Translations under genes and position numbers: made by a program
Shown here: piece by piece, positions 11,423 through 28,290 of the stretch
Position numbering within the stretch: position 1 is the first letter of the stretch
How the letters are laid out: each line of letters opens with the position of its first letter
Virus record (IMG/VR): IMGVR_UViG_3300038701_000780
Location: 1-29,187 of that record
From: a virus
Length of the DNA: 29,187 bases
Reading direction: 5' to 3' (one strand)
The notes under the pieces: generated by a model
What the model was told of the DNA's origin: nothing
What the model saw: only the letters and a program-made list of their open reading frames with translations
The model's database searches: none

Positions 11423-11434
11423 TTACTTAGCCCC

Positions 11435-14122: not shown

Positions 14123-14148
14123 ATAGTTGTTGGAACAGCCAACCGGAC

Positions 14149-14183
14149 TAGCAGCTTCGCTGCGGCCACGAGCTTTGCTCGTT
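14149..14183 (-). repeat. Double-hairpin element inside tRNA T-loop
   Basis: Minus strand: ACGAGC-AAA-GCTCGT, linker GGC, CGCAGC-GAA-GCTGC, ending in TA. It starts AACGAGC and ends GCTGCTA, the same ends as the copy at 22226-22260, from which it differs at one base of the linker. It lies between the G and the T of a T-loop TTCGAG|T. Confidence 0.88.
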
Positions 14184-14214
14184 CTCGAACCGGCATCTCC
14201 TCCATTTAGACGAA

Positions 14215-14236
14215 AGCAGGCCACGCCTGCGGCGTT
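14215..14236 (-). repeat. Single-hairpin element (ACGCC-GCA-GGCGT type)
   Basis: Minus strand: A-ACGCC-GCA-GGCGT-GGCCTGCT. The same unit recurs at 16844-16866 and, in opposite orientation, at 17123-17144. It lies directly after the acceptor stem of the interrupted tRNA at 14131-14245. Confidence 0.82.
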
Positions 14237-14254
14237 ATTGGCTGCATGTAGATT

Positions 14255-14328
14255 TGGTCGTCCCACGAGGTAACGCTCCTCGGTCTCTTGCTTATCAGGC
14301 AAGTACTCTACTTTTGAGCTATAGGACA
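14255..14328 (-). tRNA. tRNA-Ile (GAT)
   Basis: 74 nt with CCA. Acceptor TGTCCTA/TGGGACG (two G-U pairs), D stem GCTC/GAGT, anticodon arm CTTGC-CTGATAA-GCAAG. The T stem CGAGG/CCTCG is perfect but the loop is AGCGTTA instead of TTCRANY, and the D-loop AAAAGTA lacks the GG pair, so the normal D-T loop contact cannot form. Anticodon is clear; functionality is open. Confidence 0.82.
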
Positions 14329-14372
14329 TTGAAAATTTCTGTCCACAGCGAAGCTGTTTTAGGACATTGAAA
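14322..14372 (-). repeat. Hairpin element flanked by 13-bp direct repeats
   Basis: The 13-bp sequence taggacattgaaa (plus strand) occurs at 14322-14334 and 14360-14372. Between them is a hairpin ACAGC-GAA-GCTGT (14345-14357). One repeat copy covers the 5' end of tRNA-Ile, the other abuts the 3' CCA of the next tRNA. This looks like an insertion with target duplication. Confidence 0.82.
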
Positions 14373-14373
14373 T

Positions 14374-14547
14374 TGGCGGGCCGTGCGGGATTCGAACCAA
14401 GATCGAGAAATGGGGTCTCAACGATCCTTTTACGCTTCCTCTTGTCTAGATCTTCTGACTTTTGAACATTCCCATTATTTTTCAGTTTTCAGAAGAGGGG
14501 TCCTTACGGCTTTCCCGACAAGCGCTTTACCATTAAGCTAACGGCCC
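14374..14547 (-). tRNA. tRNA-Pro (CGG), interrupted by ~98 nt
   Basis: Ends are tRNA-like: acceptor GGGCCGT/ACGGCCC is perfect, followed by G and CCA; D arm GCTT-AATGGTA-AAGC is perfect; anticodon arm GCTT-GTCGGGA-AAGC gives CGG. About 98 extra nt then separate the anticodon arm from a T arm whose loop is TTCGAAT but whose stem pairs only partly. The insert can fold: TCTTCTGA pairs with TCAGAAGA, and GATC..GAGA pairs with TCTC..GATC. It is either an unusual intervening sequence or a broken gene. Confidence 0.6.
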
Positions 14548-14551
14548 TAAT

Positions 14552-14625
14552 TGGAACGGATACTCAGACTCGAACTGAGGACTCTTGGTTGGAAGCCAAG
14601 CACGTTACCTCTACGCCATACCCGC
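14552..14625 (-). tRNA. tRNA-Gly (TCC)
   Basis: 74 nt with CCA. Acceptor GCGGGTA/TATCCGT with G-U pairs, anticodon arm CTTGG-CTTCCAA-CCAAG, T arm CTCAG-TTCGAGT-CTGAG perfect. Standard cloverleaf. Confidence 0.93.
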
Positions 14626-14643
14626 ATGAATTTTATACTTCGG

Positions 14644-14685
14644 CTGGATGAACAGCTTTGCTGTGACCAGTCTTTGACTGGATGA
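14644..14685. repeat. Double-hairpin element with 8-bp direct repeats
   Basis: Plus strand: ctggatga (14644-14651), hairpin ACAGC-TTT-GCTGT (14652-14664), GA, hairpin CCAGTC-TTT-GACTGG (14667-14681), and ctggatga again (14678-14685). The second direct repeat contains the CCA end of tRNA-Gln, so the element abuts a tRNA 3' end and the stem itself uses the repeat bases. Confidence 0.85.
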
Positions 14686-14752
14686 TCCGACAGGATTCGA
14701 ACCTGTGTCAACGGATTCAAAGTCCGCTATCCTACCACTAGACGACGGATCA
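14679..14752 (-). tRNA. tRNA-Gln (TTG)
   Basis: 74 nt with CCA. Acceptor TGATCCG/CGGATCA perfect, anticodon arm CGGA-CTTTGAA-TCCG, T arm ACAGG-TTCGAAT-CCTGT perfect. The CCA is shared with a palindromic element. Confidence 0.93.
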
Positions 14753-14759
14753 ACATAAT

Positions 14760-14836
14760 TGGCAAGGGAGGTAGGAATCGAACCCACGACACGCAGTGGT
14801 TTGGAATCACCGGCTCTACCATTGAGCTACACCCCT
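14760..14836 (-). tRNA. tRNA-Trp (CCA)
   Basis: 77 nt with CCA. It starts AGGGGTGTAGCTCAATGGTA, close to bacterial tRNA-Trp, with anticodon loop TTCCAAA (anticodon CCA), G73, and T arm GTGGG-TTCGATT-CCTAC. Two mismatches in acceptor and anticodon stems. Confidence 0.88.
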
Positions 14837-14966
14837 ATGATTTCTTACCGAGAAACGACATCCAGACGGCTCATGACACCTTCAAAAACCCTTTTCAACG
14901 GTATGACACCCCTGCTCCAGTAACCGTAAACACCTCATCTAGAATAGGTGCCACGAACGAAGTGAG
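14837..14966. other. Spacer without recognised gene
   Basis: No tRNA T-loop signature or ORF with coding character is seen. At 14951-14969 there is an inverted repeat CCAC...GTGG around GAACGAAGTGA that runs into the CCA end of the next tRNA; it may be a diverged palindromic element. Confidence 0.4.
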
Positions 14967-15030
14967 TGGAAGATAGGGACGGAATTGAACCGCCGTAAGA
15001 AGGGTGTCTAAACCACTCTGCCACCTACCT
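14967..15030 (-). pseudogene. Truncated Ser/Leu-type tRNA
   Basis: Only 64 nt including CCA. Acceptor AGGTAGG/CCTATCT pairs throughout with one G-U, T arm GGCGG-TTCAATT-CCGTC is good, and TGGCAGAGTGGTTTAGACAC looks like the D arm of a Ser or Leu tRNA. The anticodon and variable arms appear deleted. An alternative reading as a D-armless tRNA with loop GTTTAGA exists but is less likely. Confidence 0.55.
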
Positions 15031-15168
15031 AAATTAGTTTGCCGTGTCCCTCATCGGTTAACCCCTCTCGGCGACTTCTACGGGCATCAAGTTCTTTTCG
15101 GGAATCAAACCCTAGCAACGTCTCACAGAAACTCGATTTACACAGCAAATTCTTTGGTCCCCAAGGTC
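15031..15168. other. Spacer with possible tRNA remnant
   Basis: A T-arm-like GGG-TTTGATT-CCC occurs on the minus strand near 15098-15112 with an altered loop base, but no matching acceptor stem, anticodon arm or CCA could be found. No protein gene is convincing. Confidence 0.35.
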
Positions 15169-15246
15169 TGGTAGCCGCCGTAGGACTCGAACCTACACTG
15201 TACGCATTCTAAGTGCGTCGTCTCCTGCCAATTGGACTAGACGGCC
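15169..15246 (-). tRNA. tRNA-Leu (TAG), short variable loop
   Basis: 78 nt with CCA and A73. Acceptor GGCCGTC/GGCGGCT with G-U pairs, anticodon arm ACGCA-CTTAGAA-TGCGT perfect, T arm GTAGG-TTCGAGT-CCTAC perfect. Anticodon TAG reads CUA Leu codons, yet the long variable arm of bacterial tRNA-Leu is absent. Confidence 0.85.
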
Positions 15247-15270
15247 TTATTTTTACCCCTTGGGGGTGAT

Positions 15271-15345
15271 TGGTCTGAAATCTAGGAATCGAACCTAGCT
15301 TGCATCCTTCCAAGGGACACCGATGACCCAGCCTCTTCATCTCAG
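15271..15345 (-). tRNA. tRNA-Pro (TGG)
   Basis: 75 nt with CCA. Acceptor CTGAGAT/ATTTCAG, anticodon arm TGTCC-CTTGGAA-GGATG (two G-U), T arm CTAGG-TTCGATT-CCTAG perfect. The D region can pair GATGA with TCATC, with an enlarged loop. Confidence 0.85.
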
Positions 15346-15353
15346 GTTATTGT

Positions 15354-15440
15354 TGGAGCTGGCAGTAGGATTCGAACCTACGGTGGGCTTTCGCCGACGG
15401 ATTACAAAACCGTTCCCTTCGTCCGCTCGGGTACACCAGC
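15354..15440 (-). tRNA. Type II tRNA with anticodon TGT (Thr)
   Basis: 87 nt with CCA. Acceptor GCTGGTG/TGCCAGC, anticodon arm ACGGT-TTTGTAA-TCCGT (inner T-T), long variable arm with hairpin GGC-GAAA-GCC, T arm GTAGG-TTCGAAT-CCTAC perfect. The D arm (CCCGAGCGGACGAAGGG) and variable arm are those of a Ser tRNA, but the anticodon is TGT. T73 fits neither Ser (G73) nor Thr (A73) of E. coli. Confidence 0.82.
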
Positions 15441-15496
15441 TTAATGACTTTTTCCTTTGTTTCGACAACAACCATTATACGAGAACGGCATTTATT

Positions 15497-15567
15497 TGGA
15501 ACCAAGTTGGGAGTCGAACCCTTATAGCTGAGGATTCACAGTCCCCCTCTCTCACCGGAGCCTTGGC
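15497..15567 (-). tRNA. tRNA-His (GTG)
   Basis: 71 nt with CCA. Acceptor GCCAAG/CTTGGT, anticodon arm GGGGA-CTGTGAA-TCCTC, T-loop TTCGACT on a stem with only three sure pairs. Slightly short; the G-1:C73 feature of tRNA-His is not obvious (T73). Confidence 0.78.
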
Positions 15568-15576
15568 TTAATCTGT

Positions 15577-15653
15577 TGGAGAGACACGAGGGATTCGAAC
15601 CCATCAACAAACAAGTTAAAAGCCTGCTGCCATTCCCAGATGGCCCGTGCCCC
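15577..15653 (-). tRNA. tRNA-Lys (TTT)
   Basis: 77 nt with CCA. Acceptor GGGGCAC/GTGTCTC with G-U pairs, D arm GCCA/TGGC, anticodon arm CAGG-CTTTTAA-CTTG, T-loop TTCGAAT with three G-C pairs and two mismatches. Confidence 0.83.
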
Positions 15654-15666
15654 GTATCAGGGATAT

Positions 15667-16002
15667 TTATTTTCTAACAGCGGCACGATCAAGACGTTCG
15701 ATCTCTGCAAGAATAAGTGCCCCCGCTTTGACCAACTGTCGTCGAGTGTCGGCGGGCTTGAAAGTCCAATCTTCGGGCCACGGAGCTTCTTCAACCGGGT
15801 AAATTTTTAAGTCTTTACCGGTGGCACGGTGATGTATGTGCTGTATTGCGGCAACGTCCGCTAAAACACTGGCCGCAAAAGCCAAGGAGCCGTCGGCGTG
15901 GTAAGTGTCGTCATGCTCTCGGGACCACCCTAATTCAAGAATTTGACGATTCCGCTCTTCTAAAACATCTGCTATGTGCTGTGAAGAAATTCTTTCTAAC
16001 AT
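15667..16002 (-). CDS. Conserved phage protein, WPEDW...KP family
   Basis: About 111 aa from the second ATG (MLERISSQHIADVLEERNRQ), chosen because AAGGAA lies 9 nt before it, whereas it touches the first ATG at 16011. The sequence QILELGWSREHDDTYHADGS, LAFAASVLA, EAPWPEDWTFKPADTRRQLV and KAGALILAEIERLDRA matches a family common in phages and prophages (RxxQ...GW..EHDD.h.dGsLa.AA...P.W..W.KP...R.DLVrAgALilAEIERLdR). It has no settled function that I know; the helical layout resembles MazG-like all-alpha nucleotide pyrophosphohydrolases, but the metal-binding ExxE motif is not clear. It stands alone among tRNA genes. Confidence 0.85.
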   Translation of the reverse strand: MLERISSQHIADVLEERNRQILELGWSREHDDTYHADGSLAFAASVLADVAAIQHIHHRATGKDLKIYPVEEAPWPEDWTFKPADTRRQLVKAGALILAEIERLDRAAVRK

Positions 16003-16027
16003 GTTGTTCATTTCCTTGTTTTAAGAA

Positions 16028-16105
16028 TGGCTGACGTAGTTGGACTCGAACCAACCTTATTCTCGGTTAACAGCCGAGCACTTTCACCCGGAAAGCTATA
16101 CGTCA
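16028..16105 (-). tRNA. tRNA-Asn (GTT)
   Basis: 78 nt with CCA and G73. Acceptor TGACGTA/TACGTCA perfect, anticodon arm CTCGG-CTGTTAA-CCGAG perfect, T arm GTTGG-TTCGAGT-CCAAC perfect. Confidence 0.94.
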
Positions 16106-16121
16106 ATAGTGGTTGATAAAT

Positions 16122-16208
16122 TGGCAGAGAGCAGAGGACCCGAGCCCCAGACCGTAAAGCCCCACTGGTTTAGCAAACCGTGCCTAAGACCTCTTAGATT
16201 TACTCTCT
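16122..16208 (-). tRNA. tRNA-Ser (GCT)
   Basis: 87 nt, type II, with CCA and G73. Acceptor AGAGAGT/GCTCTCT, anticodon loop TTGCTAA on stem GGT/ACC, long variable arm. The T-loop is CTCGGGT instead of TTCRANY, a marked deviation. Confidence 0.82.
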
Positions 16209-16217
16209 ATGTTTGAT

Positions 16218-16292
16218 TGGTGGAAGAGAAGAGGATCGAACTCTTAATTTCGCCTTGCAAGGGCAATGGTTTACCAATTAGCCTACTCCCCC
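16218..16292 (-). tRNA. tRNA-Ala (TGC)
   Basis: 75 nt with CCA and A73. Acceptor GGGGGAG/CTCTTCC (G-U pairs), anticodon arm TTGCC-CTTGCAA-GGCGA, T arm AAGAG-TTCGATC-CTCTT. The G3-U70 pair required by AlaRS is present. Confidence 0.93.
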
Positions 16293-16334
16293 AAAGAACG
16301 TCGCCCCCTTGGTACATGGGCCCCCATTGATTAG

Positions 16335-16817
16335 TTAAAGGCCGCTGTTGCGAATATCAACAATAGTCTGTGTTTCTTGCTCAGTAAGTGTGTTGCCTCT
16401 TTCAGCCACAAAGTTACCAAGGCTGTCAAATCCAATTTCGGATTCACCGTGCTTAGCCGCTCTACCGACACCGAGATTAAAACACCAGAACAAGAAGGTG
16501 ACGCTAATCAAACGAATATCAACGCCAACAACCCTCTTCGACACTGTTTTCGTGTACGAGTACCCAAACTTCTTGTTGGTGTCGTTCTTTGCTACTGAGA
16601 AACCAAACACACGTCTAGTTCTATCATTTGGGTAGCGCCACGGGCTTTTGTACTTGCACCATGCTCTTTTTCTAGATTTCAAATCAAACATAACGGTCCT
16701 TTTCTGGTTTGTTTTGTACTCTTTATAAGAAGACAAGCACGCAGCAAAGCATAAAGCTAGGCCAGAGGTACCTGTCATAAGGTAGATTGTGCGACGGCGA
16801 GATATCCACTTCTCCAT
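16335..16817 (-). CDS. Putative membrane-anchored small protein
   Basis: A 160-aa frame with AGAGGGG 4 nt before the ATG. The N-terminus MEKWISRRRTIYLMTGTSGL then ALCFAACLS has a basic lead and one membrane helix (about 10-29). A basic middle part MFDLKSRKRAWCKYKSPWRY follows; a second hydrophobic stretch (RLISVTFLFWCFNLGVG) lies at about 102-118. The C-terminus FDSLGNFVAERGNTLTEQET is soluble. I do not recognise the family. The strong ribosome binding site, Cys/Trp content and a single open frame in a cluster of tRNAs support coding; an internal start at the MFDLKS Met is possible. Confidence 0.55.
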   Translation of the reverse strand: MEKWISRRRTIYLMTGTSGLALCFAACLSSYKEYKTNQKRTVMFDLKSRKRAWCKYKSPWRYPNDRTRRVFGFSVAKNDTNKKFGYSYTKTVSKRVVGVDIRLISVTFLFWCFNLGVGRAAKHGESEIGFDSLGNFVAERGNTLTEQETQTIVDIRNSGL

Positions 16818-16843
16818 AAGTCCCCTCTGAGGACCTAGCAGGA

Positions 16844-16866
16844 TAGCAGGCCACGCCTGCGGCGTT
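16844..16866 (-). repeat. Single-hairpin element inside T-loop
   Basis: Minus strand AACGCC-GCA-GGCGT-GGCCTGCTA, inserted between TTCAAA and TCCTGC of a T arm. Its ends (AACG...TGCTA) match those of the element in the T-loop at 14149-14183. Confidence 0.83.
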
Positions 16867-16937
16867 TTTGAACCTGCGACTCCGCCTATTCAAGCGACGG
16901 GGGCGATAAAGTGTGCCATGTATTCCCGTCTTTTGTC

Positions 16938-16985
16938 GGTACTACGCTGAAGGCGTGGAGCCAATGAGCGTAGTGAATTGGTACT
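16938..16985. repeat. Diverged double hairpin with 6-bp direct repeats
   Basis: ggtact at 16938-16943 and 16980-16985 flank a unit with ACGC...GCGT and CCAAT...ATTGG inverted repeats joined by GGAG. Structure is similar to the other elements but stems and loops are less regular. Confidence 0.6.
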
Positions 16986-16998
16986 CAGTGATGGAACA

Positions 16999-17016
16999 GC
17001 AGCAAAGCTGCGACCA
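16999..17016 (+). repeat. Hairpin element, GCAGC-AAA-GCTGC
   Basis: Plus strand perfect hairpin (16999-17011) followed by GACCAC, the usual linker, but without a second hairpin. It lies 7 nt from the CCA of tRNA-Val. Confidence 0.75.
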
Positions 17017-17022
17017 CAAAAA

Positions 17023-17097
17023 TGGTGCTCAGGGCTGGTTTCGAACCAACGGCTTCCTCTTTGTAAGAGAGGCACTCTACCTCTGAGTTACCCGAGC
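17023..17097 (-). tRNA. tRNA-Val (TAC)
   Basis: 75 nt with CCA and A73. Acceptor GCTCGGG/CCTGAGC, anticodon arm CCTCT-CTTACAA-AGAGG perfect, T arm GTTGG-TTCGAAA-CCAGC. Confidence 0.93.
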
Positions 17098-17122
17098 ATT
17101 TTTTGTTATCGAACCACCGTAA

Positions 17123-17144
17123 AACGCCGCAGGCGTGACCTGCT
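17123..17144 (+). repeat. Single-hairpin element, inverted orientation
   Basis: Plus strand AACGCC-GCA-GGCGT-GACCTGCT, the same unit as at 14215-14236 and 16844-16866 on the other strand, in the variable region of the tRNA-Val-like pseudogene. Confidence 0.82.
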
Positions 17145-17175
17145 GTAGTCTGCGTGTAAAACAGGTGTTCTACCA

Positions 17176-17212
17176 TAACACGCAAAGCGTGTGGTCACAG
17201 CGAAGCTGTTTT
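17176..17212 (-). repeat. Double-hairpin element in tRNA D-loop
   Basis: Minus strand: AAA, ACAGC-TTC-GCTGT, linker GACC, ACACGC-TTT-GCGTGT, TA. Both stems are perfect. It separates TAGTTCA from TGGTAGAAC of a tRNA D arm. Confidence 0.87.
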
Positions 17213-17235
17213 GAACTAACCGAGCAAATTTTTTG

Positions 17236-17511
17236 TTACTGAAGTGTCAGAAAAGCAGCGTCAGAAAGATCAAACTCCCAACCGTCTTTTGTGATTGTCA
17301 GCTCTGGTGGAAGATAAACACCTTCGTCAATCTCAATTACAGGAATGTAATTTACGACAAAACCAGCCTCAAGAAGCATGTCTTTTAGCTCTTCAGCAGG
17401 GTCGTTTTCTTCTTCGTCGTCTTCGTCTTCTTCGAAAAACTCTGAATTATCAAAGTCTTCGTCATCAAAGTCTTCTTCTTCGATGTAGTCCTCGTATTCG
17501 TCTTCAAACAT
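17236..17511 (-). CDS. Small acidic protein, unknown
   Basis: A 91-aa protein with a strong Shine-Dalgarno (AAGAGGAGG, 9 nt before ATG). Residues 1-41 are almost entirely Asp, Glu and aromatic residues (MFEDEYEDYIEEEDFDDEDF), a disordered DNA-mimic-like tail. Residues 42-91 form a small folded part: LKDMLLEAGFVVNYIPVIEI, VYLPPELTITKDGWEFDLSD. I do not recognise the family. Acidic phage proteins can bind host DNA-binding proteins, but nothing here proves that role. Codon use and the ribosome binding site support coding. Confidence 0.75.
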   Translation of the reverse strand: MFEDEYEDYIEEEDFDDEDFDNSEFFEEDEDDEEENDPAEELKDMLLEAGFVVNYIPVIEIDEGVYLPPELTITKDGWEFDLSDAAFLTLQ

Positions 17512-17567
17512 GGTTTGGGCCTCCTCTTAAACCACGATAAGAGTAACACAAAAACCAAAGCTGTCGG

Positions 17568-17651
17568 TGGCGGAGGGTAGAGTAATCGAAACACGTACCT
17601 TTCAGCACCCCTAGGGTTCAAGCCTAGTTTGACACCTTGCCGGTACCCTCC
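17568..17651 (-). tRNA. tRNA-Ser (TGA)
   Basis: 84 nt, type II, CCA and G73. Acceptor GGAGGGT/ACCCTCC perfect, anticodon arm CTAGG-CTTGAAC-CCTAG perfect, long variable arm, T-loop TTCGATT on a weak stem. Confidence 0.9.
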
Positions 17652-17656
17652 CTTAG

Positions 17657-17730
17657 TGGCGAAGCATACGGGACTCGAACCCATCTCCTCGGGTAGACAA
17701 CCCGGTACGCAACCTCTACGTCAATGCTCC
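17657..17730 (-). tRNA. tRNA-Asp (GTC)
   Basis: 74 nt with CCA and G73. Acceptor GGAGCAT/ATGCTTC, anticodon arm CGGG-TTGTCTA-CCCG, T arm ATGGG-TTCGAGT-CCCGT. T at position 37 is unusual. Confidence 0.9.
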
Positions 17731-17736
17731 TTAATT

Positions 17737-17822
17737 TGGCCCACCACGTCGGAATCGAACCGAACTTTAGCTCCCAGACAGGCCTTTAGTCTAGACAGAA
17801 GCTGCACCTTGCTATGCGGCGG
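17737..17822 (-). tRNA. Type II-length tRNA, anticodon uncertain (AGA?)
   Basis: 86 nt with CCA and G73. Acceptor CCGCCGC/GTGGTGG and T arm TTCGG-TTCGATT-CCGAC are good. The anticodon arm is best read TCTGT-CTAGACT-AAAGG (one mismatch), giving AGA, a Ser anticodon that fits type II length and G73, but position 37 is C and the D arm is not Ser-like. Confidence 0.55.
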
Positions 17823-17826
17823 AAAT

Positions 17827-17918
17827 TGGTGTGGAGCTAGGCATCGAACCTTGAGTTGCCACCATCTCCATCACATTAGTAAATTAGGTGCGTGTAACTT
17901 AGCAACTTGTCATCACAC
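17827..17918 (-). tRNA. Degenerate tRNA-like gene, anticodon unresolved
   Basis: About 92 nt ending in CCA. T arm CAAGG-TTCGATG-CCTAG has one mismatch; the acceptor GTGTGAT/GCTCCAC pairs at 5 of 7. The anticodon arm around ACCTAATTTACTAATGT has mismatches and a 9-nt loop. Type II length; probably decayed or an undetected fold. Confidence 0.45.
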
Positions 17919-17986
17919 GAGGTGAGTAGGATCGTTGCGACCTATCTCAGGCTGAACACCTCACGATGTCAACGTCACCTAATATT
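17919..17986 (-). other. Possible tRNA remnant without CCA
   Basis: Minus strand AGGTGA...TCACCT can close a 6-bp stem over about 60 nt, with an inner TAGG...CCTA hairpin whose loop TCGCAACGAT is not a T-loop. No anticodon arm or CCA is visible. Nothing else is seen here. Confidence 0.3.
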
Positions 17987-18065
17987 TGGTTGCGGGGGCC
18001 GGATTCGAACCGACGTTCTTCGAGTTATGAGCCCGACGAGATGACCAGACTTCTACCACCCCGCA
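17987..18065 (-). tRNA. Initiator tRNA-fMet (CAT)
   Basis: 79 nt with CCA and A73. Acceptor TGCGGGG/CCCCGCA, anticodon arm TCGGG-CTCATAA-CTCGA, T arm GTCGG-TTCGAAT-CCGGC. Body and 3' half closely follow E. coli tRNA-fMet. The hallmark 1-72 mismatch (C-A) is replaced by a weak T-A pair, and one of the three G-C pairs of the anticodon stem is G-U, but the initiator type is clear. Confidence 0.9.
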
Positions 18066-18127
18066 AAAAATAAGGTGTTGGCACCTATTAGATAACCAAC
18101 GGTCTTTGCTTTGAGACCCCACTACAT

Positions 18128-18364
18128 TCACCACAAATGCGTAGAGCGACCCACGGAGTCATAACACCTACGCCATTGGTTAAATGGTACGTTAGCGGCC
18201 AGAGGTCTTCCCGTGTCACACATCTCCCACCAATCACCATAATCAGCGGGTTTGTACTTTTTTCTATCGATGTCAAAGAGCAAGAAACAATGTGTTTCCC
18301 TATTGTGTAAATAGAAGTAACATACCGTTTTTGGCTTTGCAACACCTATTTCAATCAAATCCAC
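18128..18364 (-). CDS. Small unknown protein, GTG start
   Basis: A 78-codon frame from GTG at 18362-18364. The protein (MDLIEIGVAKPKTVCYFYLH, CFLLFDIDRKKYKPADYGDW, WEMCDTGRPLAANVPFNQWR) has balanced composition with alternating strands and looks coded. The start codon lies inside a palindromic element (CAGC-TTT-GCTG) and no good Shine-Dalgarno is seen. From about 18180 the -1/+1 alternative frame continues with MTPWVALRICGECSG, which contains CxxC, so a frameshift or a short second gene is possible. Family not recognised. Confidence 0.45.
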   Translation of the reverse strand: MDLIEIGVAKPKTVCYFYLHNRETHCFLLFDIDRKKYKPADYGDWWEMCDTGRPLAANVPFNQWRRCYDSVGRSTHLW

Positions 18365-18374
18365 AGCAAAGCTG
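18364..18374 (+). repeat. Hairpin element, CAGC-AAA-GCTG
   Basis: Perfect single hairpin at the start of the small ORF, followed on the plus strand by a T-rich run. Same core as the copy at 16999-17011. Confidence 0.65.
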
Positions 18375-18385
18375 CTATTTTTTAC

Positions 18386-18416
18386 GCAAAAAGAAAGGGA
18401 ACCTTGCGGCTCCCCT
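18386..18416 (-). terminator. Intrinsic terminator after capsid gene
   Basis: Minus strand hairpin GGGAGCC-GCAA-GGTTCCC (one G-U, stable GNRA loop), followed by TTTCTTTTT. It is 25 nt past the stop of the major capsid gene, so it would limit read-through from capsid genes into the tRNA cluster. Confidence 0.85.
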
Positions 18417-18441
18417 CTTAGTTTTTAACTCTGGTGGTTCC

Positions 18442-19374
18442 TTATGAGCCAGTAGAACCATACCATCCACGGAAATCGAGGTGACCAAAGCTGTAACGCT
18501 CACGGGCTCGATATTTCATGATACCGCGATCTCCATCATCGTCATCTGACGTTTGCAGGGCCACACGGCTGTACATAAGTGTCGAGTTCGGAATCGATGT
18601 TTGGATGAACCAAGCACCATCATCAGAGAGACGACAGTTCGTTTTAACGCCTCCGGGGAAGAATCCTCCAGAACCAACGATGTTCTTATCGTTGACGTTA
18701 GTTACTCCGTCCGACCCTTGAGTCGTTACAGAGGTAGACAGGTCTGAGTCAAGGATCTTACGAGCCGTGAACATCAGTGACGTTGGGATAACCAGTTTCT
18801 GTGCTGTCGCACCGGTTAGGTTTCCTCGGTCGTCTGTTTGACGCTGAATCTTAATGATCGCGTTTTCGAGAGCTGTCTCTGAAAGTTGACCAGTAAGGGT
18901 GTTGTCGAAGTTCCCAGCGTCTGTAGTTGGGTGGTCGTTGGCAAAAAGTGCTTTACCATCTGGACCGTTAGCTGTTGAGAAAGCTAGGTTGAAGTAGTTA
19001 GCAGCACGCATTTGCTTCGTTTCACCCATCGCACGACCAAGGGCCGTAGCAAAGAGAGCTGAACGCTCTGCGTAAATGTTATCTTCAATAGCTTCTTCAG
19101 TGATCGTGTACCCAAGAGCGATAGTTTGGTGCAGCCAGCGCTGCTTGTAAAGCTCTTCGAGAGAGTCAAAGCGGATCGTGTCCCCTTCAAGTTTCTCTGC
19201 TGCACGACCGAAGTTACCAACCATCAGCTGTTCTTCGTAGTTACGACTAGACGAACGTGTTTCGAAAAGGTCGTTGTGCTCCTCTTTGACAGCGTTGTAG
19301 TTCTGGCTTACGATCTGGTCGAGGCCGGGAACCAACATGCTTGCAAGAGTTGCTCTGTTCATTGCTTGTGCCAT
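18442..19374 (-). CDS. Major capsid protein (HK97 fold)
   Basis: A 310-aa protein, the expected size for a podovirus shell subunit. AAGGAG lies upstream of ATG and a terminator follows. The N-terminal segment (NYNAVKEEHNDLFETRSSSR) is followed by the E-loop-like part AEKLEGDTIRFDSLEELYKQ. A central stretch holds KALFANDHPTTDAGNFDNTL, then GQLSETALENAIIKIQRQTD and GATAQKLVIPTSLMFTARKI. 'LFa.dHp......N.....LS...l..a...m..q....G..l...P..LvvP..l...A..ll' is the P-domain signature of Mu gpT-type and related HK97-fold capsids. Location after scaffold and before tail genes agrees. High abundance is implied by its own terminator. Confidence 0.92.
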   Translation of the reverse strand: MAQAMNRATLASMLVPGLDQIVSQNYNAVKEEHNDLFETRSSSRNYEEQLMVGNFGRAAEKLEGDTIRFDSLEELYKQRWLHQTIALGYTITEEAIEDNIYAERSALFATALGRAMGETKQMRAANYFNLAFSTANGPDGKALFANDHPTTDAGNFDNTLTGQLSETALENAIIKIQRQTDDRGNLTGATAQKLVIPTSLMFTARKILDSDLSTSVTTQGSDGVTNVNDKNIVGSGGFFPGGVKTNCRLSDDGAWFIQTSIPNSTLMYSRVALQTSDDDDGDRGIMKYRARERYSFGHLDFRGWYGSTGS

Positions 19375-19393
19375 AGTTCAGTTACTCCTTTCC

Positions 19394-20696: not shown

Positions 20697-20699
20697 AGA

Positions 20700-21767: not shown

Positions 21768-21781
21768 GAATTATTTTCTCC

Positions 21782-22198: not shown

Positions 22199-22225
22199 CA
22201 GGTTTCTCCTTTGTCTGTAATCAAT

Positions 22226-22260
22226 AACGAGCAAAGCTCGTGGTCGCAGCGAAGCTGCTA
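22226..22260 (+). repeat. Double-hairpin element at gene end
   Basis: Plus strand A-ACGAGC-AAA-GCTCGT-GGT-CGCAGC-GAA-GCTGC-TA. It separates the GroES-like gene from the 127-aa gene, and its last three bases supply the stop codon (TAG on the minus strand) of that gene. It is the near-identical inverse copy of 14149-14183. Confidence 0.9.
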
Positions 22261-22641
22261 GTCTAGCTTACTTTTCTCGTCTTCCCAACCATGATCGGGT
22301 GATAAACCGTCTTTTAACCACTCAGAACGAAGATCTGGCGTTACCATAGTCGTTAACATCTTGATTGCATCTGGAACTGTTGCTTCCTCTCCAAATGAGA
22401 TGTGGATTCGGTTTATTTTCGGCGATCCCGGCTCGTCTTTCAAAGCTTGGTCGATGAGATTCACAAGCCCGTTAAAATCTTCAGACTCAGCTTCTTTTTC
22501 TTTGATTATCGCCAAGTTCTCTTCAGTAAAAAACTCTGGATTTTCCAAAGCTGAGTTAACTAGAGAGACAACTTTATAAACACGAAGGTCTTTTGGTCTA
22601 GGAAGCACACCGGGAATCTCAATCGTCTGTGTCTCGTTCAT
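22258..22641 (-). CDS. Small acidic protein, unknown
   Basis: I choose the ATG at 22639-22641 (MNETQTIEIPGVLPRPKDLR, 127 aa), preceded by GAAGGTGA; the frame extends 6 codons upstream to a TTG. It overlaps the previous gene by 23 nt, which suggests coupling. The product is acidic and helical (VSLVNSALENPEFFTEENLA, GLVNLIDQALKDEPGSPKIN) with a possible C-terminal tail SEWLKDGLSPDHGWEDEKS. It lies between portal and co-chaperonin genes, a place where podoviruses often carry small assembly proteins. The family is not recognised. The stop codon is provided by an inserted palindromic element. Confidence 0.65.
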   Translation of the reverse strand: MNETQTIEIPGVLPRPKDLRVYKVVSLVNSALENPEFFTEENLAIIKEKEAESEDFNGLVNLIDQALKDEPGSPKINRIHISFGEEATVPDAIKMLTTMVTPDLRSEWLKDGLSPDHGWEDEKSKLD

Positions 22642-22810
22642 TTTTGTCACCTTCTTCAATAATGGCTATGATTTCGCGAAATGCTTGGGCTCTACCTCTA
22701 ACTACGTCGCTGTCTTCTTTTTCTTTCTCAATAAGGGCAGAGGTACAGGTTTCCATTTCGTCGGCGCTGTACGCTTTGACCTCTTTAAGAATTGTTGCTG
22801 GTGTCGCCAT
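22619..22810 (-). CDS. Very small helical protein, unknown
   Basis: A 63-aa protein (MATPATILKEVKAYSADEME, CTSALIEKEKEDSDVVRGRA, QAFREIIAIIEEGDKNERD), highly charged and probably one long helix or a helical hairpin. It overlaps the previous gene (22785-23030) by 26 nt and the next by 23 nt. Its ATG follows directly after a direct repeat (CGTTATA on the plus strand) of the inserted element at 22811-22853, so the insertion replaced its original ribosome binding region: GGAGCTGCTATAACG precedes ATG, with GGAG inside the element. Function unknown. Confidence 0.6.
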   Translation of the reverse strand: MATPATILKEVKAYSADEMETCTSALIEKEKEDSDVVRGRAQAFREIIAIIEEGDKNERDTDD

Positions 22811-23030
22811 CGTTATAGCAGCTCCTCTGCGGCCACGAGCCTTGCTCGTTATACCCTACCTGTGGATCTGTAAATGTCAAGTCCCCTTCGGTACGACGAG
22901 CGTAAACAGGGACTATGCCGTCTTCGGCGTGGCTACTTTCATACCAAACGTTGTACCAGTGGTCCTTTTGGTCAGCAGGAATAACGTATGAGTGGCCACT
23001 TTCGTCGCTCACTAAACAGAATCGTTTCAT
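22785..23030 (-). CDS. Small conserved protein with in-frame element
   Basis: An 81-aa protein MKRFCLVSDESGHSYVIPAD, KDHWYNVWYESSHAEDGIVP, VYARRTEGDLTFTDP. The pattern 'flVSDdsgHwYvIPad....W..w........G..P.yA.r..g....tF..p' occurs in small phage proteins of unknown role. The next 12 residues (YNEQGSWPQRSC) are encoded by a 36-bp palindromic insertion (element plus one copy of its 7-bp target), then YNDGDTSNNS ends the protein. The start is 6 nt after the portal stop. So the fold is probably complete before the insertion, and the insertion is tolerated at the C-terminus. Confidence 0.72.
   Translation of the reverse strand: MKRFCLVSDESGHSYVIPADQKDHWYNVWYESSHAEDGIVPVYARRTEGDLTFTDPQVGYNEQGSWPQRSCYNDGDTSNNS
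22811..22853 (-). repeat. Double-hairpin element, 7-bp repeats, in frame
   Basis: cgttata occurs at 22811-22817 and 22847-22853. Between them, on the minus strand, lie ACGAGC-AAG-GCTCGT, GGC, and a degenerate second hairpin (GCAG-AGGAG-CTGC). Insertion length (one repeat plus element) is 36 bp, so the frame of the 81-aa protein is kept. Confidence 0.85.
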
Positions 23031-23036
23031 TTGTCT

Positions 23037-25385
23037 CTACTCTTTCGCGCTGTTTTTAACGTTGAATACATCCATTGCTTCTTTAATTCCCTTTTCAATG
23101 AGATCAGAACCAAGGCGAACTCTTTCCATGTCCATCTTTGTACCGCTTTCAGCAGCGTCGTTCAACATCTTTTGGATTTGACCGGCTTTGTGCATAATAT
23201 CGATACCCAGCTTGACTTGTGACTCTTTAGCCTTACGGTCTTCCGCTTTGGCTTCTGTGTCTGCTCGTAGAGCTTCGGCTTCTGCAACGATTTGAGCTGG
23301 AGTGCCTTTTTGATCCAGTTGCTGTTGAAGTTCCATAAGCTTAGCCAGACGTTGAGATGCGGCTCCGACATCTAGTCCTTGCTGCTGTTGCATTGCTTGC
23401 ATCTCTGCTACCCACTTGAGGGTCTGGTGCTCACGAATGTTGGCTTGAATGATAGGAACGAAGGCAGCCATTGACTGTGACCCACCTTGTTGTGGATTAT
23501 TCAGCCATCCCATCTTAACTGCGACGTGAGCTGTGTGATCTTGGCCGTCAAACGCTTTGATTGGTTTGTTTTCCAGAGCAGCACGAATGTCTGAGATAGG
23601 GTCCATTGGCTCTGGTTGCACATCGGGCAGAAGAAGTTTGTCTGCGTTCTCCACGTCGAGAGCACGATAGAACTCTTTGTATGCTTGCTTAATGTCGTGA
23701 ATGTCTCTGGCTTGCAGGGCGTAGTCAAGCTTAGCCTGTGCCATCGCAATTCTTTGTGCCTGAGATGGTTTGTTAGGATCAGAAACAGGAATGACCTTGA
23801 CCAACATTGGGTCGTAGTCTTCACGAAGAATGTCTGCTGTGTACCCCGGTAGAGCAAACTCAAACTCATCGTCAAGGTGCTCGAAGTTCATTGCAGCAAG
23901 AGTCTTTAGTTCGTTCCCCTGTGAGACAAACGCTCGTTTATGAACGGCCCCAAAGAACTTAGCTGACGCTTCGAGAAGAGCCATCGTTGTGCCAACTGGG
24001 CCGTAGTTAGAAGACTCAGCTACAACACTTTGCGTACTGTCCGCGAATTGCTTCGCTCTGTTCTGCGTATCTACGTAGACCTCAAACAGTGTTTGTGACG
24101 GTTCCCTGAATGGAAGAAGCATTAAGGCCTCTTTAAGGTCCCCGTGGTGGCTAACGTCTCTGAACTCACCCGGCCCGAGAGGCTCAGCGTTGTCATTAAT
24201 CTTGAGGCTTTTCTTCTTGAAACCAGCCTGAAGGTTAGCGAACTGTCCTGCGTCCATGAGAGAACGAAGGGTGTTGGTCAGTGTCTCCTGTACGTTTGTT
24301 AGGAGGTGGACGAACCCAAAAGAATAAAAGTTGCCAGCAGGAACAAAACCGTAATGAGTAATGTGGTGGGCTCGTCGTCTTTTTTCATCATAGCTTCTCC
24401 AGTTCTTACGAATAGACAGAACAGCTCCGGTTGATTTGTTAACCGTTACAATGTAGGGGTCAAACTGACCATCTTCTTCGTCGAGGTCAAGGTTTCCATC
24501 GCCCCTTTCAACGACAGGGAGGTAAACCTGCTGTTCAATAACCTCGTATACTTCGTCCTTTAGATTAGAAATACCGGCTGCTGAGCGAAGAGCGTTAGTC
24601 AACTCACTCATTTCTGGTGTCATTGGTTCACCAACTTCGGTGTCGTCTGCTTCAAAGAACCCCTTCTGAACAAGACCCTTCATCCGTCTTTCAGAGTAAA
24701 ACAAACGGACAGAGATACGTTCAGCTGTTTCTAGGCTTGTTGCCATAGCGTTTACGGCTACGTCAGAAGGCATCACAAAGCTGTCGACAATACGATCTTC
24801 TACATCGTCGTATACCTTGCGCTTAAACCCGTTACCAACAAGGGCCGTAAAGAACATCATCTTTTCTGTTTCAGGAATGAACTCGGGCATGTTTTCTGTT
24901 ACTTGCCAATTCATGTGAGTCTTGACGCGGTTTGCTCTTTGCTCGCTTTCCTCGTCAGAAGGACCAAGCACCTGTGTCTTCACTGGGCCTGATGAAGGAA
25001 GAAGTTCGGTGCACATACGCGACTGGTACGAGATAACCGACTCAAGGATAATTGGGTGGTCTACTTGGCAGGCCCCTTCGAAGATAGGCTCTGAGTCGCT
25101 GTTGCTGATACCAAGGTTACGAAGACCGTCTGATGTAATTTGTTCCCACTCGCTTCTTGAAGCAACGTCGTCGTCAAAGTCCTCAATTACGTCGTTACCG
25201 ATCTGTTTTAGATCTTCGTCAGTGAATCGTTTCTTGAGGTTTGCATAGTGGTAGCTTTCTTCGTCCTCTTCGTCGTAGACCTCTCGCGGTACTTCTTCAA
25301 GCAGCTCGTCTTCTTCAAAAAGAAACTCTCCCTGTTCGTCTACAATTTCTAGGTCTGTTGTTTGTGTTTGGGTCGTTTCTGACAT
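23037..25385 (-). CDS. Portal protein
   Basis: A 782-aa protein in the usual place after terL and of the size of P22/SU10-type portals. An acidic N-terminus (EEDELLEEVPREVYDEEDEE) precedes the conserved part: EPIFEGACQVDHPIILESVI then YQSRMCTELLPSSGPVKTQV ('i..GAs..v.PlI.ea...y.....eL.p.....v'), and HITHYGFVPAGNFYSFGFVH then LLTNVQETLTNTLRSLMDAG, the long central helix region. The C-terminal 200 residues are coiled-coil and Gln-rich (EMQAMQQQQGL, LAKLMELQQQLDQKG) and could form the barrel. Ring-shaped dodecamer at the packaging vertex; binds terminase, then the gp4-like adaptor. The start lies 10 nt after the terL stop. Confidence 0.92.
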   Translation of the reverse strand: MSETTQTQTTDLEIVDEQGEFLFEEDELLEEVPREVYDEEDEESYHYANLKKRFTDEDLKQIGNDVIEDFDDDVASRSEWEQITSDGLRNLGISNSDSEPIFEGACQVDHPIILESVISYQSRMCTELLPSSGPVKTQVLGPSDEESEQRANRVKTHMNWQVTENMPEFIPETEKMMFFTALVGNGFKRKVYDDVEDRIVDSFVMPSDVAVNAMATSLETAERISVRLFYSERRMKGLVQKGFFEADDTEVGEPMTPEMSELTNALRSAAGISNLKDEVYEVIEQQVYLPVVERGDGNLDLDEEDGQFDPYIVTVNKSTGAVLSIRKNWRSYDEKRRRAHHITHYGFVPAGNFYSFGFVHLLTNVQETLTNTLRSLMDAGQFANLQAGFKKKSLKINDNAEPLGPGEFRDVSHHGDLKEALMLLPFREPSQTLFEVYVDTQNRAKQFADSTQSVVAESSNYGPVGTTMALLEASAKFFGAVHKRAFVSQGNELKTLAAMNFEHLDDEFEFALPGYTADILREDYDPMLVKVIPVSDPNKPSQAQRIAMAQAKLDYALQARDIHDIKQAYKEFYRALDVENADKLLLPDVQPEPMDPISDIRAALENKPIKAFDGQDHTAHVAVKMGWLNNPQQGGSQSMAAFVPIIQANIREHQTLKWVAEMQAMQQQQGLDVGAASQRLAKLMELQQQLDQKGTPAQIVAEAEALRADTEAKAEDRKAKESQVKLGIDIMHKAGQIQKMLNDAAESGTKMDMERVRLGSDLIEKGIKEAMDVFNVKNSAKE

Positions 25386-25395
25386 GAGTTAATTA

Positions 25396-27078
25396 CTACC
25401 TTCTTCTACCCCAATAGGTTTTTCTAGTCTTCATTGTATCGGAGTCTTCGTCATCATCAAAGGGATCAGCGTTATTTGGGTTCTCAATTAATGTCGAATC
25501 TACGAGAAACAGGATTGCTTGGGTCATGGAGTCAACGTAGTCGTCCTTACCACCGGCACCGGGGCTAAAGCGTAGTAGCTCGTCTGTGAACTCTTTGTTC
25601 AGTTCTACGTCTGACTCGTCTTCGTTCTCAAAGAAATAAATCATTCCCGATTTGAAGTAGGGCTGACAGGCGAGGGCTCTTGCTCTTTTGTCTTTCTCCG
25701 GTAGGTACTCTTCTACGGGAAACCCTAGTCGTCTAAGTTCTTGGATAAGCGACTGACCCGAGGCTTTTTTCTCAATGAGAAAGATCTCTGGTTTCCAATC
25801 AGTACGTAGGTCGTGGCAAAGATCGACAAGGTCAGGGAACTCGTATCTTCCTTTCTCGTTGTGAATCTTAATAACCCGAGGGATTGTCATCGTTGTTCCT
25901 CCGGGCATAGGCATGTCTTCTTCAAAGATTCCCCAGACAGTAACAGCTGTGTAGTCAGCTCGGTCCGCAACAGAGAAGGCCGTATCCAGAGAAACAATCG
26001 TCATTGAACACTTTGGCGGCTCAGCAGCAACGTAGGACTTAAAGAGATCCTCTGAGAAGATAGAACCACCAGCGTTAATTGGGTCTTGCATGTACAGGGC
26101 TGGCCATAGGTGGGGCTCTGGCTGAGTCGCCTCTACTTCGTCTAGTGTTGCCTCGTCCCACAGCTCAGGCCAAAAGCTTCCTCCTTCAGTGATCTGTGAC
26201 CAACCAATCTTGTTCTTCTTAGCTACTTCGTTTAGGAAATCGGCCATAGAAGCGCTGAGACGAGCAGGAATGGCAATGATGCGCCAAGGGTCCCCTGCCT
26301 TACGATCTACCTCTGTGATGTACCCTGAGAGGTCGTCTACGTGCCACCTAGTGTTAACGATGACCTCACAGCCACCGGGAAGAAGACGAGAACGAAGACC
26401 GGGAACGTACCATTTGTTGATCTTCCCTCTTTCCCCCTTAGAAAAGGCCGTTTGTTCAGAGATAACGTCGTCACAAATAGTCAGCTCAGCACGACGACCG
26501 GCGATAGGAACACCAGCACCGCAACAGAAGTACTCACCAGCTTTAGTCGATCTCCAGTATCCCCGTGTATCTACCTTCGGATCAATGTTGTACTCAGGGA
26601 AGATGGAACGGTACTGCTCAGAAACAAGAACACTTTTAATACGAATACCGAAGTTCGCTTGGGCAAAGTCTGTTGTGTTACCAACGTGAATAAATCGCCA
26701 CATGGGGTGTCGTCCCATACACCAAGTCACAAAGAGGTTGAGGATAAGAGACTTCATGGCTCCCGGTGGAACCCAGATCTGTAGTTTTCTTTTGAACTTC
26801 TTTGTCTTGAGCTTACGACCTTTGACAATCGCTTTCTCAATTTCCATTAGTTCTTGGCAGTAAAGGTAGAGATGAACACCGTCAATGAAATCGTCAGGCA
26901 TAACCTCTTTGGCCATGATCGTGACGTAGGTGTGGAAGTCGTTCCTAGCTAGTTCTTCTCTTTCGTCCTGAACCATCTCATAGATGGACTCTCGCTTAGC
27001 TGGACTAGAGATGTCTTTGACTTGACTAAGGACTGAGGCAATGACAGCCCTTGCTTTGAGGATTTCATTAAAATTCAT
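25396..27078 (-). CDS. terL: Terminase large subunit
   Basis: A 560-aa packaging motor. The ATPase part has a non-canonical Walker A VPPGAMKS (103-110), Walker B LTICDD (199-204) and the coupling segment VIVNTRWHVDDLSGY (239-253). The RNase H-like nuclease has SLDTAF (D365), IEKKASGQS (E436) and a C-terminal KDDYVDSMTQA (D512, D513, D516), which together give the acidic triad. 'PPGa.KS' and 'N TRwh.dDL' are typical of the TerL group of P22-related and many marine podoviruses. It cuts concatemeric DNA and pumps it through the portal. The ATG has no good Shine-Dalgarno, and is separated from terS by a 450-bp noncoding region. Confidence 0.95.
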   Translation of the reverse strand: MNFNEILKARAVIASVLSQVKDISSPAKRESIYEMVQDEREELARNDFHTYVTIMAKEVMPDDFIDGVHLYLYCQELMEIEKAIVKGRKLKTKKFKRKLQIWVPPGAMKSLILNLFVTWCMGRHPMWRFIHVGNTTDFAQANFGIRIKSVLVSEQYRSIFPEYNIDPKVDTRGYWRSTKAGEYFCCGAGVPIAGRRAELTICDDVISEQTAFSKGERGKINKWYVPGLRSRLLPGGCEVIVNTRWHVDDLSGYITEVDRKAGDPWRIIAIPARLSASMADFLNEVAKKNKIGWSQITEGGSFWPELWDEATLDEVEATQPEPHLWPALYMQDPINAGGSIFSEDLFKSYVAAEPPKCSMTIVSLDTAFSVADRADYTAVTVWGIFEEDMPMPGGTTMTIPRVIKIHNEKGRYEFPDLVDLCHDLRTDWKPEIFLIEKKASGQSLIQELRRLGFPVEEYLPEKDKRARALACQPYFKSGMIYFFENEDESDVELNKEFTDELLRFSPGAGGKDDYVDSMTQAILFLVDSTLIENPNNADPFDDDEDSDTMKTRKTYWGRRR

Positions 27079-27104
27079 AGGGGTTCAGAGTATCATAAAG
27101 CACA

Positions 27105-27141
27105 ACAGCTTTGCTGTGGCTCGTGATCGCGCCAAAGGCGC
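27105..27141 (+). repeat. Double-hairpin element upstream of terL
   Basis: Plus strand ACAGC-TTT-GCTGT (27105-27117), an 11-nt linker, GCGCC-AAA-GGCGC (27129-27141). Both stems are perfect. It lies 27 bp upstream of the terL start, so it would be in the terL leader. Confidence 0.8.
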
Positions 27142-27143
27142 TA

Positions 27144-27530
27144 GTACAATGTCCGAAATACATTGAAATCAAAAAATTACTTAACGGATTAACGGCCCAA
27201 AAAACAGAAAGAACTCTATTACATAGTATCTATTACATTGTCTTTTAATCAGTCCATTGAATTATTTTTAACCAATGAATGAATGATTGATACTATGTAT
27301 CAGTTACCATGATTATTAAATACTGTTAATGAATAATAAAACCTATGGTCAATTAATGAGACACGGTATTGATACCATGTAACCCTTCAAGAGAATTATA
27401 AGCATGACCATTGGCTTTTTGCAATCGGTATCAACATTAAATGTTTTTAACAATTCATATGAACCAGTAAAACACAGGCAAATAAATTACATGTGAAAAC
27501 TTGACAAGAACTGTATCGATTCCGAAACGA
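27144..27530. other. AT-rich noncoding region with GATAC motifs
   Basis: No open frame with coding character on either strand. It is much richer in A and T than its surroundings. Seen: direct repeat tctattacat (27215-27224, 27229-27238); perfect inverted repeat TGATAC-TAT-GTATCA (27288-27302), whose arm matches ACATAGTATC at 27221-27230 in inverse; palindrome GGTATTGATACC (27365-27376); and another GGTATCA at 27427. It could be an origin, a packaging site or an operator region between terS and terL. Confidence 0.6.
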
Positions 27531-28127
27531 TTAAGCAACCTGTGTTGAGCCCCTAGACGGTTCAGGGTCATTTTTGGCCTCTTTGGTCGCGTCAAGGAGT
27601 CTTTCTAGTCCCGATCTTCTGTCCGCTTTTTTGTCCTCTTTACGGGCCGTATTTTCCTTGGGTTGAACCGCATTTGGCTTTCCAATAAGTCCGCTTACTT
27701 CAGCTAGGTTTCTCGCAGCAATGTTTGCTTCCTTGAAGTTCTTCTCCTCCATCGCCGCTGTGTATACGTCTCTCATCAATTCAATGATTTCACCAGCATC
27801 AAGGCTTGCCATCATCGCAGATTTCTTACCCAGTAGGGCAAGGTAGTCCTGTACACCGGGTCTTTTCAGTGTATTTGCTCCAACTCTGCCCGGATGCTCT
27901 GCTGTAGACCCCGCTTGACGTGCCGCGTTTCCTGCTTGTCCACTACGAGCGTAGTATTCAGCAAATTTCTTCTCGAACGGAGACAAAGTAGCCCCTGCTT
28001 GGAAGATGGCCTCGTTAAGTTCCTTCTCTAGCTGCCTCCGAGACTTGTTTTCGGTCGTGTAACTGTTGTGGTCAATGCCCGATCTAGGTTCGTTATCGAT
28101 TTCTTCGATATTAGTGTCTTCTGTCAT
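27531..28127 (-). CDS. terS: Terminase small subunit
   Basis: A 198-aa protein. AGAGGT precedes the ATG. Residues about 45-95 form the DNA-binding helical domain of the Terminase_2 type: TLSPFEKKFAEYYARSGQAG, NAARQAGSTAEHPGRVGANT then LKRPGVQDYLALLGKKSAMM ('t..e..F...Y...GnaaqAA..AGy.......g..lLk.p.V..yi'). A second helical part (DAGEIIELMRDVYTAAMEEK, AARNLAEVSGLIGKP) would form the oligomer core, and a basic tail (NTARKEDKKADRRSGLERLL) follows. It recognises the packaging site and loads terL. The repeats upstream and the AT-rich DNA downstream are candidate pac regions. Confidence 0.88.
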   Translation of the reverse strand: MTEDTNIEEIDNEPRSGIDHNSYTTENKSRRQLEKELNEAIFQAGATLSPFEKKFAEYYARSGQAGNAARQAGSTAEHPGRVGANTLKRPGVQDYLALLGKKSAMMASLDAGEIIELMRDVYTAAMEEKNFKEANIAARNLAEVSGLIGKPNAVQPKENTARKEDKKADRRSGLERLLDATKEAKNDPEPSRGSTQVA

Positions 28128-28256
28128 CGCTTTTACCTCTGTTTTTATTCAACCAAATGGATGAACGTTTCCTATGTACCCGATTATACCCGGTTAGTCA
28201 TCACTAGTACACCTGACGGGGCTCAGAAAACCTCGAAAAAGCCTAAAAAGTCACCA

Positions 28257-28290
28257 GCAGGCAGAGCCTGCGACCACGAGCTTTGCTCGT
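28257..28290 (+). repeat. Double-hairpin element upstream of terS
   Basis: Plus strand GCAGGC-AGA-GCCTGC, GACC, ACGAGC-TTT-GCTCGT. Both 6-bp stems are perfect with 3-nt loops. The second hairpin is identical to that of 14149-14183 and 22226-22260, while the first is different, so hairpins appear to be exchanged as modules. Confidence 0.88.

Follow-up and report, generated by a model that had tools for sequence, protein, structure and literature searches.

Double-hairpin and other hairpin-forming elements of mitochondria are dispersed, combine hairpins with one another and enter RNA genes, and those of the fungus Allomyces are present in many copies in spacers as well as RNA genes and are presumed to be mobile (PMC2800124). 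GC-rich palindromes also flank tRNA genes in Neurospora mitochondria (cited in PMC7218506), and in cryptophyte mitochondria tRNAs are found at the ends of palindromes (PMC5910586).

The elements considered here come from the 29-kb record of an uncultured bacterial virus in IMG/VR (IMGVR_UViG_3300038701_000780; all 29,187 nucleotides were analysed and are called the window). Like the mitochondrial elements they have two adjacent hairpins and many dispersed copies, and the likeness drawn in a preliminary description of this DNA is apt. However, they occur in a tailed phage rather than a eukaryotic organelle, and the unit is smaller and sits in tRNA loops; the likeness would be structural only, with no sequence relation expected and common descent unlikely. 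In one copy (E9) a tRNA lies between palindrome arms, as in cryptophyte mitochondria. Unlike the Neurospora and cryptophyte palindromes, which flank tRNAs, the phage elements break into other tRNAs as well, at the D-loop, variable region and T-loop. They would work like double-hairpin elements, without descent from those being claimed, and look like miniature selfish DNA of the mitochondrial kind. No phage equivalent was found in the literature searched, from which subscription papers were largely absent, as was the T4 PeSL paper.

Rickettsia palindromic elements are dispersed too but, at about 100-150 bp, longer, and protein genes can hold them in frame; compared by description, the in-frame position of phage copy E3 is similar, but it is the only one of the 14 to lie in an ORF, and in-frame insertion is not the rule here. 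The PeSL cassettes of T4-type phages are larger and carry early promoters, with stem-loops shuffled among intergenic sites, whereas the present elements consist of two hairpins, have no obvious role as promoters and also enter tRNA genes. As with REP and BIME sequences, they are dispersed short palindromes and often paired, but their hairpin sequence varies freely, their ends are AAC...GCTA with no GTAG foot, and no RAYT gene was seen in the 29 kb. In archaea and red algae one tRNA gene can hold several ectopic introns, with D-loop and T-loop among the sites, and these are spliced at bulge-helix-bulge motifs by an endonuclease that is not known from bacteria; the phage elements also lie outside tRNAs. 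Intrinsic terminators (a GC hairpin plus U-run) were rejected as an explanation, most copies lacking a T-run on either side.

Architecture and distribution of the elements

In its full form the element consists of AAC, a first hairpin with arms AC.../...GT, a 4-base joiner (GGYC in most copies, the full ones included), a second hairpin and a short end, which is TA in the best copies (Table 1). Three copies (14215, 16844, 17123) are of a 22-nt short form, AACGCCGCAGGCGTGRCCTGCT, in which hairpin 1 and the 3' end are retained but a separate second hairpin is lacking. The modular exchange suggested earlier is borne out: hairpin ACGAGC-AAA-GCTCGT is joined to two different second hairpins, and CAGC-RAA-GCTG to at least three different first hairpins. 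The claim of a dispersed family in two orientations is likewise supported, copies being found on both strands and at unrelated sites; E1, E2 and E3 have 32-35 nt in common, ends and joiner included. The terminal TAG of E2, read on the minus strand, is the stop codon of the 133-aa ORF at 22258-22659.

Table 1. Hairpin elements and associated tRNA genes or remnants in the window
Feature	Position	Strand	Form or sequence	Location	Score (bits)
E1	14149..14183	-	full; AACGAGC-AAA-GCTCGT GGCC GCAGC-GAA-GCTGC TA	T-loop of T_A	57.3
E2	22226..22260	+	full	between 133-aa ORF 22258-22659 and GroES-like gene	59.9
E3	22816..22850	-	full, degenerate second hairpin	in frame in 81-aa ORF 22785-23030	54.4
E4	28257..28291	-	full; different second hairpin GCAGGC-TCT-GCCTGC		41.2
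E5	17177..17210	+	full; AACACGC-AAA-GCGTGT GGTC ACAGC-GAA-GCTGT T	D-loop of T_C	56.1
E6	17122..17143	+	short form AACGCCGCAGGCGTGACCTGC	variable region of T_C	
E7	16845..16867	-	short form	splits T-arm GCAGG-TTCAA / AT-CCTGC (T_B)	
E8	14216..14237	-	short form	3' of the 5' acceptor strand of T_A	
E9	16994..17108	-	AACAAAAA-(tRNA-Val 17023-17097)-TTTTTGT GGTC GCAGC-TTT-GCTGC TG	T-loop of T_C	
E10	14649..14684	-	CCAGTC-AAA-GACTGG TC ACAGC-AAA-GCTGT T	3' of tRNA-Gln	38.5
E11	27104..27145	+	rearranged; AACAGC-TTT-GCTGT G GCTCGT GATC GCGCC-AAA-GGCGC TA	terL/terS spacer	14.3 (weak)
E12	14341..14358	-	AAC + one hairpin ACAGC-TTC-GCTGT + GGAC	upstream of tRNA-Ile	16.0
E13	18362..18378	+	half element ACAGC-AAA-GCTGC TA	near capsid gene terminator	7.7 (weak)
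E14	16941..16982	-	doubtful; CCAAT-(11)-ATTGG CTCC ACGC-CTTCA-GCGT		5.7 (not significant)
T_A	14131..14245	-	tRNA remnant; acceptor and T stems intact, U73, CCA	interrupted by E8, E1	
T_B	16838..16877	-	isolated T-arm-like piece GCAGG-TTCAA/AT-CCTGC	split by E7	
T_C	16979..17225	-	outer tRNA-Val(TAC)-like gene	interrupted by E5, E6, E9	
Inner tRNA-Val(TAC)	17023..17097	-	intact, complete	nested in T-loop insert of T_C	

Hairpins are present at all 14 positions named in the preliminary description, with two-hairpin status differing from copy to copy. Full pairs are found in several of them, but the copy at 16944 is doubtful, with stems of 4-5 bp and longer loops, that at 18364 is a single, slightly imperfect hairpin, and that at 14345 keeps one hairpin. 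The element at 22818 is of full length but its second hairpin is degenerate, and the three short forms belong by their first hairpin and 3' end but not by a separate second hairpin. The ends AAC...GCTA, given earlier as common to full copies, are exact at 14149, 22226 and 22818 and variable in all others. E11 to E14 are weak members of the family.

The repeats are real, and a chance origin was rejected on the evidence of shuffled sequence. When perfect stems of at least 5 bp with a 3-nt loop were counted and compared with 200 dinucleotide shuffles, there were 21 stems between 14100 and 18400 vs. 4.1 +/- 2.0 in the shuffles (maximum 10 in 200), with 14 GC-rich stems vs. 1.8 and three tandem pairs vs. 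0.055. Tandem GC-rich hairpin pairs with a 4-base joiner are about 50 times commoner in this 14.1-18.4 kb cluster than in shuffled sequence, while the half of the window carrying the tail genes (1-13900) is at chance level, with 16 stems vs. 15.0 expected.

The hairpins are predicted to fold as RNA and as DNA, and stem changes between copies are compensated. With six copies aligned, 92% of the cells pair and three pairs are altered on both sides; the covariation score is 0.194 vs. 0.101 in shuffles (0 of 500 reaching it), supporting evidence only and with a weak control, since the six rows are few and related. A covariance model trained on these six copies recovers all of them and finds one untrained seventh copy in the window, the right half of E9 (16994-17030; E = 4e-4).

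Interrupted tRNA genes and a nested tRNA-Val

Neither the interruption of tRNAs by several copies nor the tRNA carried by one had been noticed in the earlier reading, which described the elements as noncoding. Not every copy is in a plain spacer: read on the minus strand, five are situated within tRNA genes or remnants, several of them interrupting these at loop positions, and a sixth (16844) is in a T-arm-like remnant. The copy at 22818 is in frame, close to the 3' end of its 81-aa ORF. Three copies split T-loops directly 3' of T54-T55-C56-R57-A58.

In T_A the acceptor (GCAGCCA/TGGCTGT) and T stem (GCCGG/CCGGT) pair across E1, which follows T54-T55-C56-G57-A58 and makes a net insert of 36 nt; the D and anticodon arms are degenerate, with E8 (14215) sitting within. 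Around T_B, an acceptor stem and CCA were looked for and not found, and 16838-16877 thus gave no third complete interrupted tRNA. Since T_A and T_B are degenerate, the insertions in tRNAs may be a sign of gene decay and not of tolerance towards inserts.

T_C is the most elaborate case, with E5 in its D-loop, in the orientation opposite to the tRNA, E6 in its variable region and E9 in its T-loop, immediately 3' of position 58. Its parts comprise the acceptor GCTCGGT/ACTGAGT, D stem GTTC/GAAC and T stem GGTGG/CCATC, followed by A-CCA, and the T-loop insert reads AACAAAAA-(tRNA-Val 17097-17023)-TTTTTGT-GGTC-GCAGCTTTGCTGC-TG. The first hairpin of E9 therefore has a whole second tRNA-Val gene as its loop; among the 14 tRNAs, only this inner one has 7-bp complementary flanks. 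At both borders of the insert the element ends obey the family rule. With its tRNA-Val inside the first hairpin, E9 appears to have carried a tRNA gene or to have been built around one.

In a cloverleaf search allowing inserts in loops, T_C scores 18 of 21 with CCA, a level of 17 with CCA not being attained in any of 1500 shuffles. Matches of at least 17 with CCA in 1.4 Mb of other sequence all contain real tRNA pieces. With the inserts excised T_C makes a good cloverleaf, which ARAGORN draws as tRNA-Val(tac) at a lowered threshold, while Rfam recognised neither T_A nor T_C. Between the inner and outer tRNA-Val five stem pairs are changed on both sides and paired in both genes, and one pair of the outer gene is broken, leaving 20 of its 21 stem pairs. 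The compensated pairs suggest that the two halves of the outer gene evolved as one molecule; mixed inner/outer pairings also score 17.5-18, as the paralogues have acceptor arms in common.

Several further tRNAs or tRNA-like genes in and beyond the cluster are unusual. One at 14374-14547 (minus strand) has an acceptor, a D stem and a CTTGT/ACAAG anticodon stem, but its anticodon loop is longer than usual by about 70 nt and its variable region by about 37; run in intron mode, ARAGORN reports tRNA-Ser(gga) with a 79-nt intron. More tRNA-like stretches at 17830-17985 and 15040-15165 (minus strand) are possibly further degenerate or interrupted tRNAs, and a 91-aa ORF within the cluster (17236-17511, minus strand) is very acidic, with Glu/Asp runs, and has no Pfam match. 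Unusual phage tRNA-like genes are likewise annotated in Vibrio phage phi-ST2, at 10889-11001, 12559-12677, 12799-12920 and 13181-13300; these are over-long (113-122 nt) with expanded anticodon arms, and one is flagged as a pseudogene.

Possible insertion traces, relatives and database searches

The window carries its genes on the minus strand, arranged as terS, terL, portal, GroES-like, capsid, tRNA cluster and tail genes, which matches the layout of large podoviruses, among them Phage DSL-LC04 and the Pelagibacter phages HTVC023P and HTVC027P. Identity to podoviruses of this type is 32-35% for the terminase and 38-44% for the capsid; the best capsid relative found is 47% identical, the best terminase 32-35%. 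Terminase and capsid peptides brought up no close relatives in IMG/VR, and 18 scanned loci of relatives contained no tRNA genes. With the relatives checked too distant and lacking a tRNA cluster, evidence for empty sites was drawn from inside the window, where it consists of the structure of the tRNAs, a paralogous copy of the 28257 flank and the direct repeat that lies in frame at 22818.

E3 is flanked by an 8-bp direct repeat, TATAACGA, with a 36-nt period, TAT AAC GA being found on both sides 36 nt apart; loss of one such unit would preserve the ORF frame, giving GYN[EQGSWPQRSCYN]D. Homologues of the 81-aa ORF that might represent the empty site were not found. Joining the flanks of E4 gives AATTCCAGTGACTTTT (16 nt), which is intact once in the window, 20 nt away at 28307-28322, and 28247-28322 is a tandem near-repeat of AATTCCAGTGACTTTT upstream of terS with one copy broken by E4. 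E10 has an 8-bp direct repeat, TCATCCAG, and its first hairpin uses CCAG from the flank, while E12 sits between 13-bp direct repeats, TTTCAATGTCCTA. Direct repeats of at least 8 bp flank four of the 14 copies vs. 2% of random positions, and their varying lengths (8, 8, 9 and 13) argue against a transposase with a fixed duplication. Profile scans of the window proteins matched no transposase, and no mobility gene was identified within the known 29 kb, the larger part of the genome lying outside it.

Outside the window, the covariance model gave three weak matches in 0.93 Mb of relatives, none of them a double hairpin, nothing convincing in 84 loci of relatives, and no match reaching E <= 0.05 in 14 records (complete or long) of related or tRNA-rich phages, which speaks against vertically inherited fixed signals; the empty genome search, run without a positive control, is weak evidence. 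Exact core patterns gave 0 and then 50 matches in 84,980 prokaryote genomes (GTDB), with the first and second family hairpins joined in none, and a host origin was rejected on that ground; three of the 50 have an upstream stem of other sequence, two of 4 bp and one of 6 bp at a different spacing. In IMG/VR and other phages these patterns gave 0, 4, 0 and 1 matches, all single hairpins, and in plasmids none. A blastn match to a Vibrio phage at E=4 was put down to chance.

Possible origin and significance

We consider it probable that the elements are a non-autonomous, apparently mobile family of palindromic double hairpins, each about 36 bp long, which has dispersed through the genome of this phage. 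A folded element would bring its two ends together, and an insert in a spacer, D-loop, variable region, T-loop after position 58 or in frame close to a protein C-terminus would then disturb little, so that tolerated insertions would survive. Residues 59 and 60 of the T-loop are bulged out in tRNA, and the D-loop and variable region naturally vary in length; it is these sites that are hit. Spread would have occurred at the DNA level during phage replication, as suggested by flanking repeats that range from none to 13 bp without a fixed target duplication. Less confidently, the copying step may have been template switching, or annealing between single strands in their folded state, since the hairpins are predicted to fold as DNA too. 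Far more tentatively, a minimal element of this size that inserts in tolerant tRNA loops while sparing the tRNA, and whose first hairpin can hold an entire tRNA gene, might act as a vehicle by which the tRNA arrays of phages are built up and reshuffled.

That most copies lie in transcribed spacers of one long minus-strand operon, and that they fold strongly, would suit functional RNA signals (processing, stability or termination) kept by selection in the tRNA and structural operons. Such a role seems unlikely for hairpins of which several sit inside tRNA loops and one in an ORF, which occur in both orientations, mostly without a U-tract, which vary or have lost a hairpin, and which are absent from relatives with the same gene order. 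Palindromes might instead be generated locally, by slippage and template switching in place with a preference for GCGAAGC/GCAAAGC mini-hairpins, and the flank-derived CCAG in E10, the varying direct repeats and loops mostly of the stable GNA/AAA type are what this would leave behind; however, the likeness of E1, E2 and E3 at unrelated sites requires copying rather than independent origin, and we regard purely local generation as quite improbable.

The tRNA cluster invites explanations of its own. It contains several degenerate tRNAs and may be a graveyard in which recombination shuffled stray hairpins and a redundant tRNA-Val fragment, the nesting being accidental, the more so as the inner and outer tRNA-Val have the same acceptor arms and their parts can be mispaired in scans. 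Accidental nesting is unlikely, though, given that covariation ties the acceptor, D and T stems of the outer gene into a single molecule and that the family rule is obeyed at both insert borders. Conversely, the interrupted tRNAs, or at least T_C, could be functional, with the elements cut out or bypassed in the RNA. The 20 stem pairs kept by T_C, its five compensated changes relative to its paralogue, the threefold use of the site just after 58 and the several inserts in one tRNA would all fit such removable inserts. But visual inspection of the folds predicted for T_C and T_A picked up neither a bulge-helix-bulge nor a catalytic-intron motif. Both T_A and T_B are degenerate, and elements also lie outside tRNAs; as far as sequence can tell, T_C has intact stems but duplicates an intact tRNA-Val and would therefore be dispensable, which leaves removal at the RNA level very unlikely.

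Phage genomes are usually compact, and no described family of such miniature palindromic selfish elements was found in them. If the probable reading, a mobile family, is correct, selfish elements can maintain themselves in a phage when they settle in spacers and in the loops of RNAs, and a concrete route would be available for the reshuffling of phage tRNA arrays. The locus would also be a test case for the tolerance of bacterial tRNAs to large inserts in the D-loop and in the T-loop after 58. It would also be a warning that interrupted phage tRNA genes escape standard tRNA finders.

Beyond terS, short repeats form two arrays at 28414-28790; palindromes of the GATGACTAGTCG type make up the first and ATGTATAGACR units the second, and the arrays are possibly a packaging or replication site.
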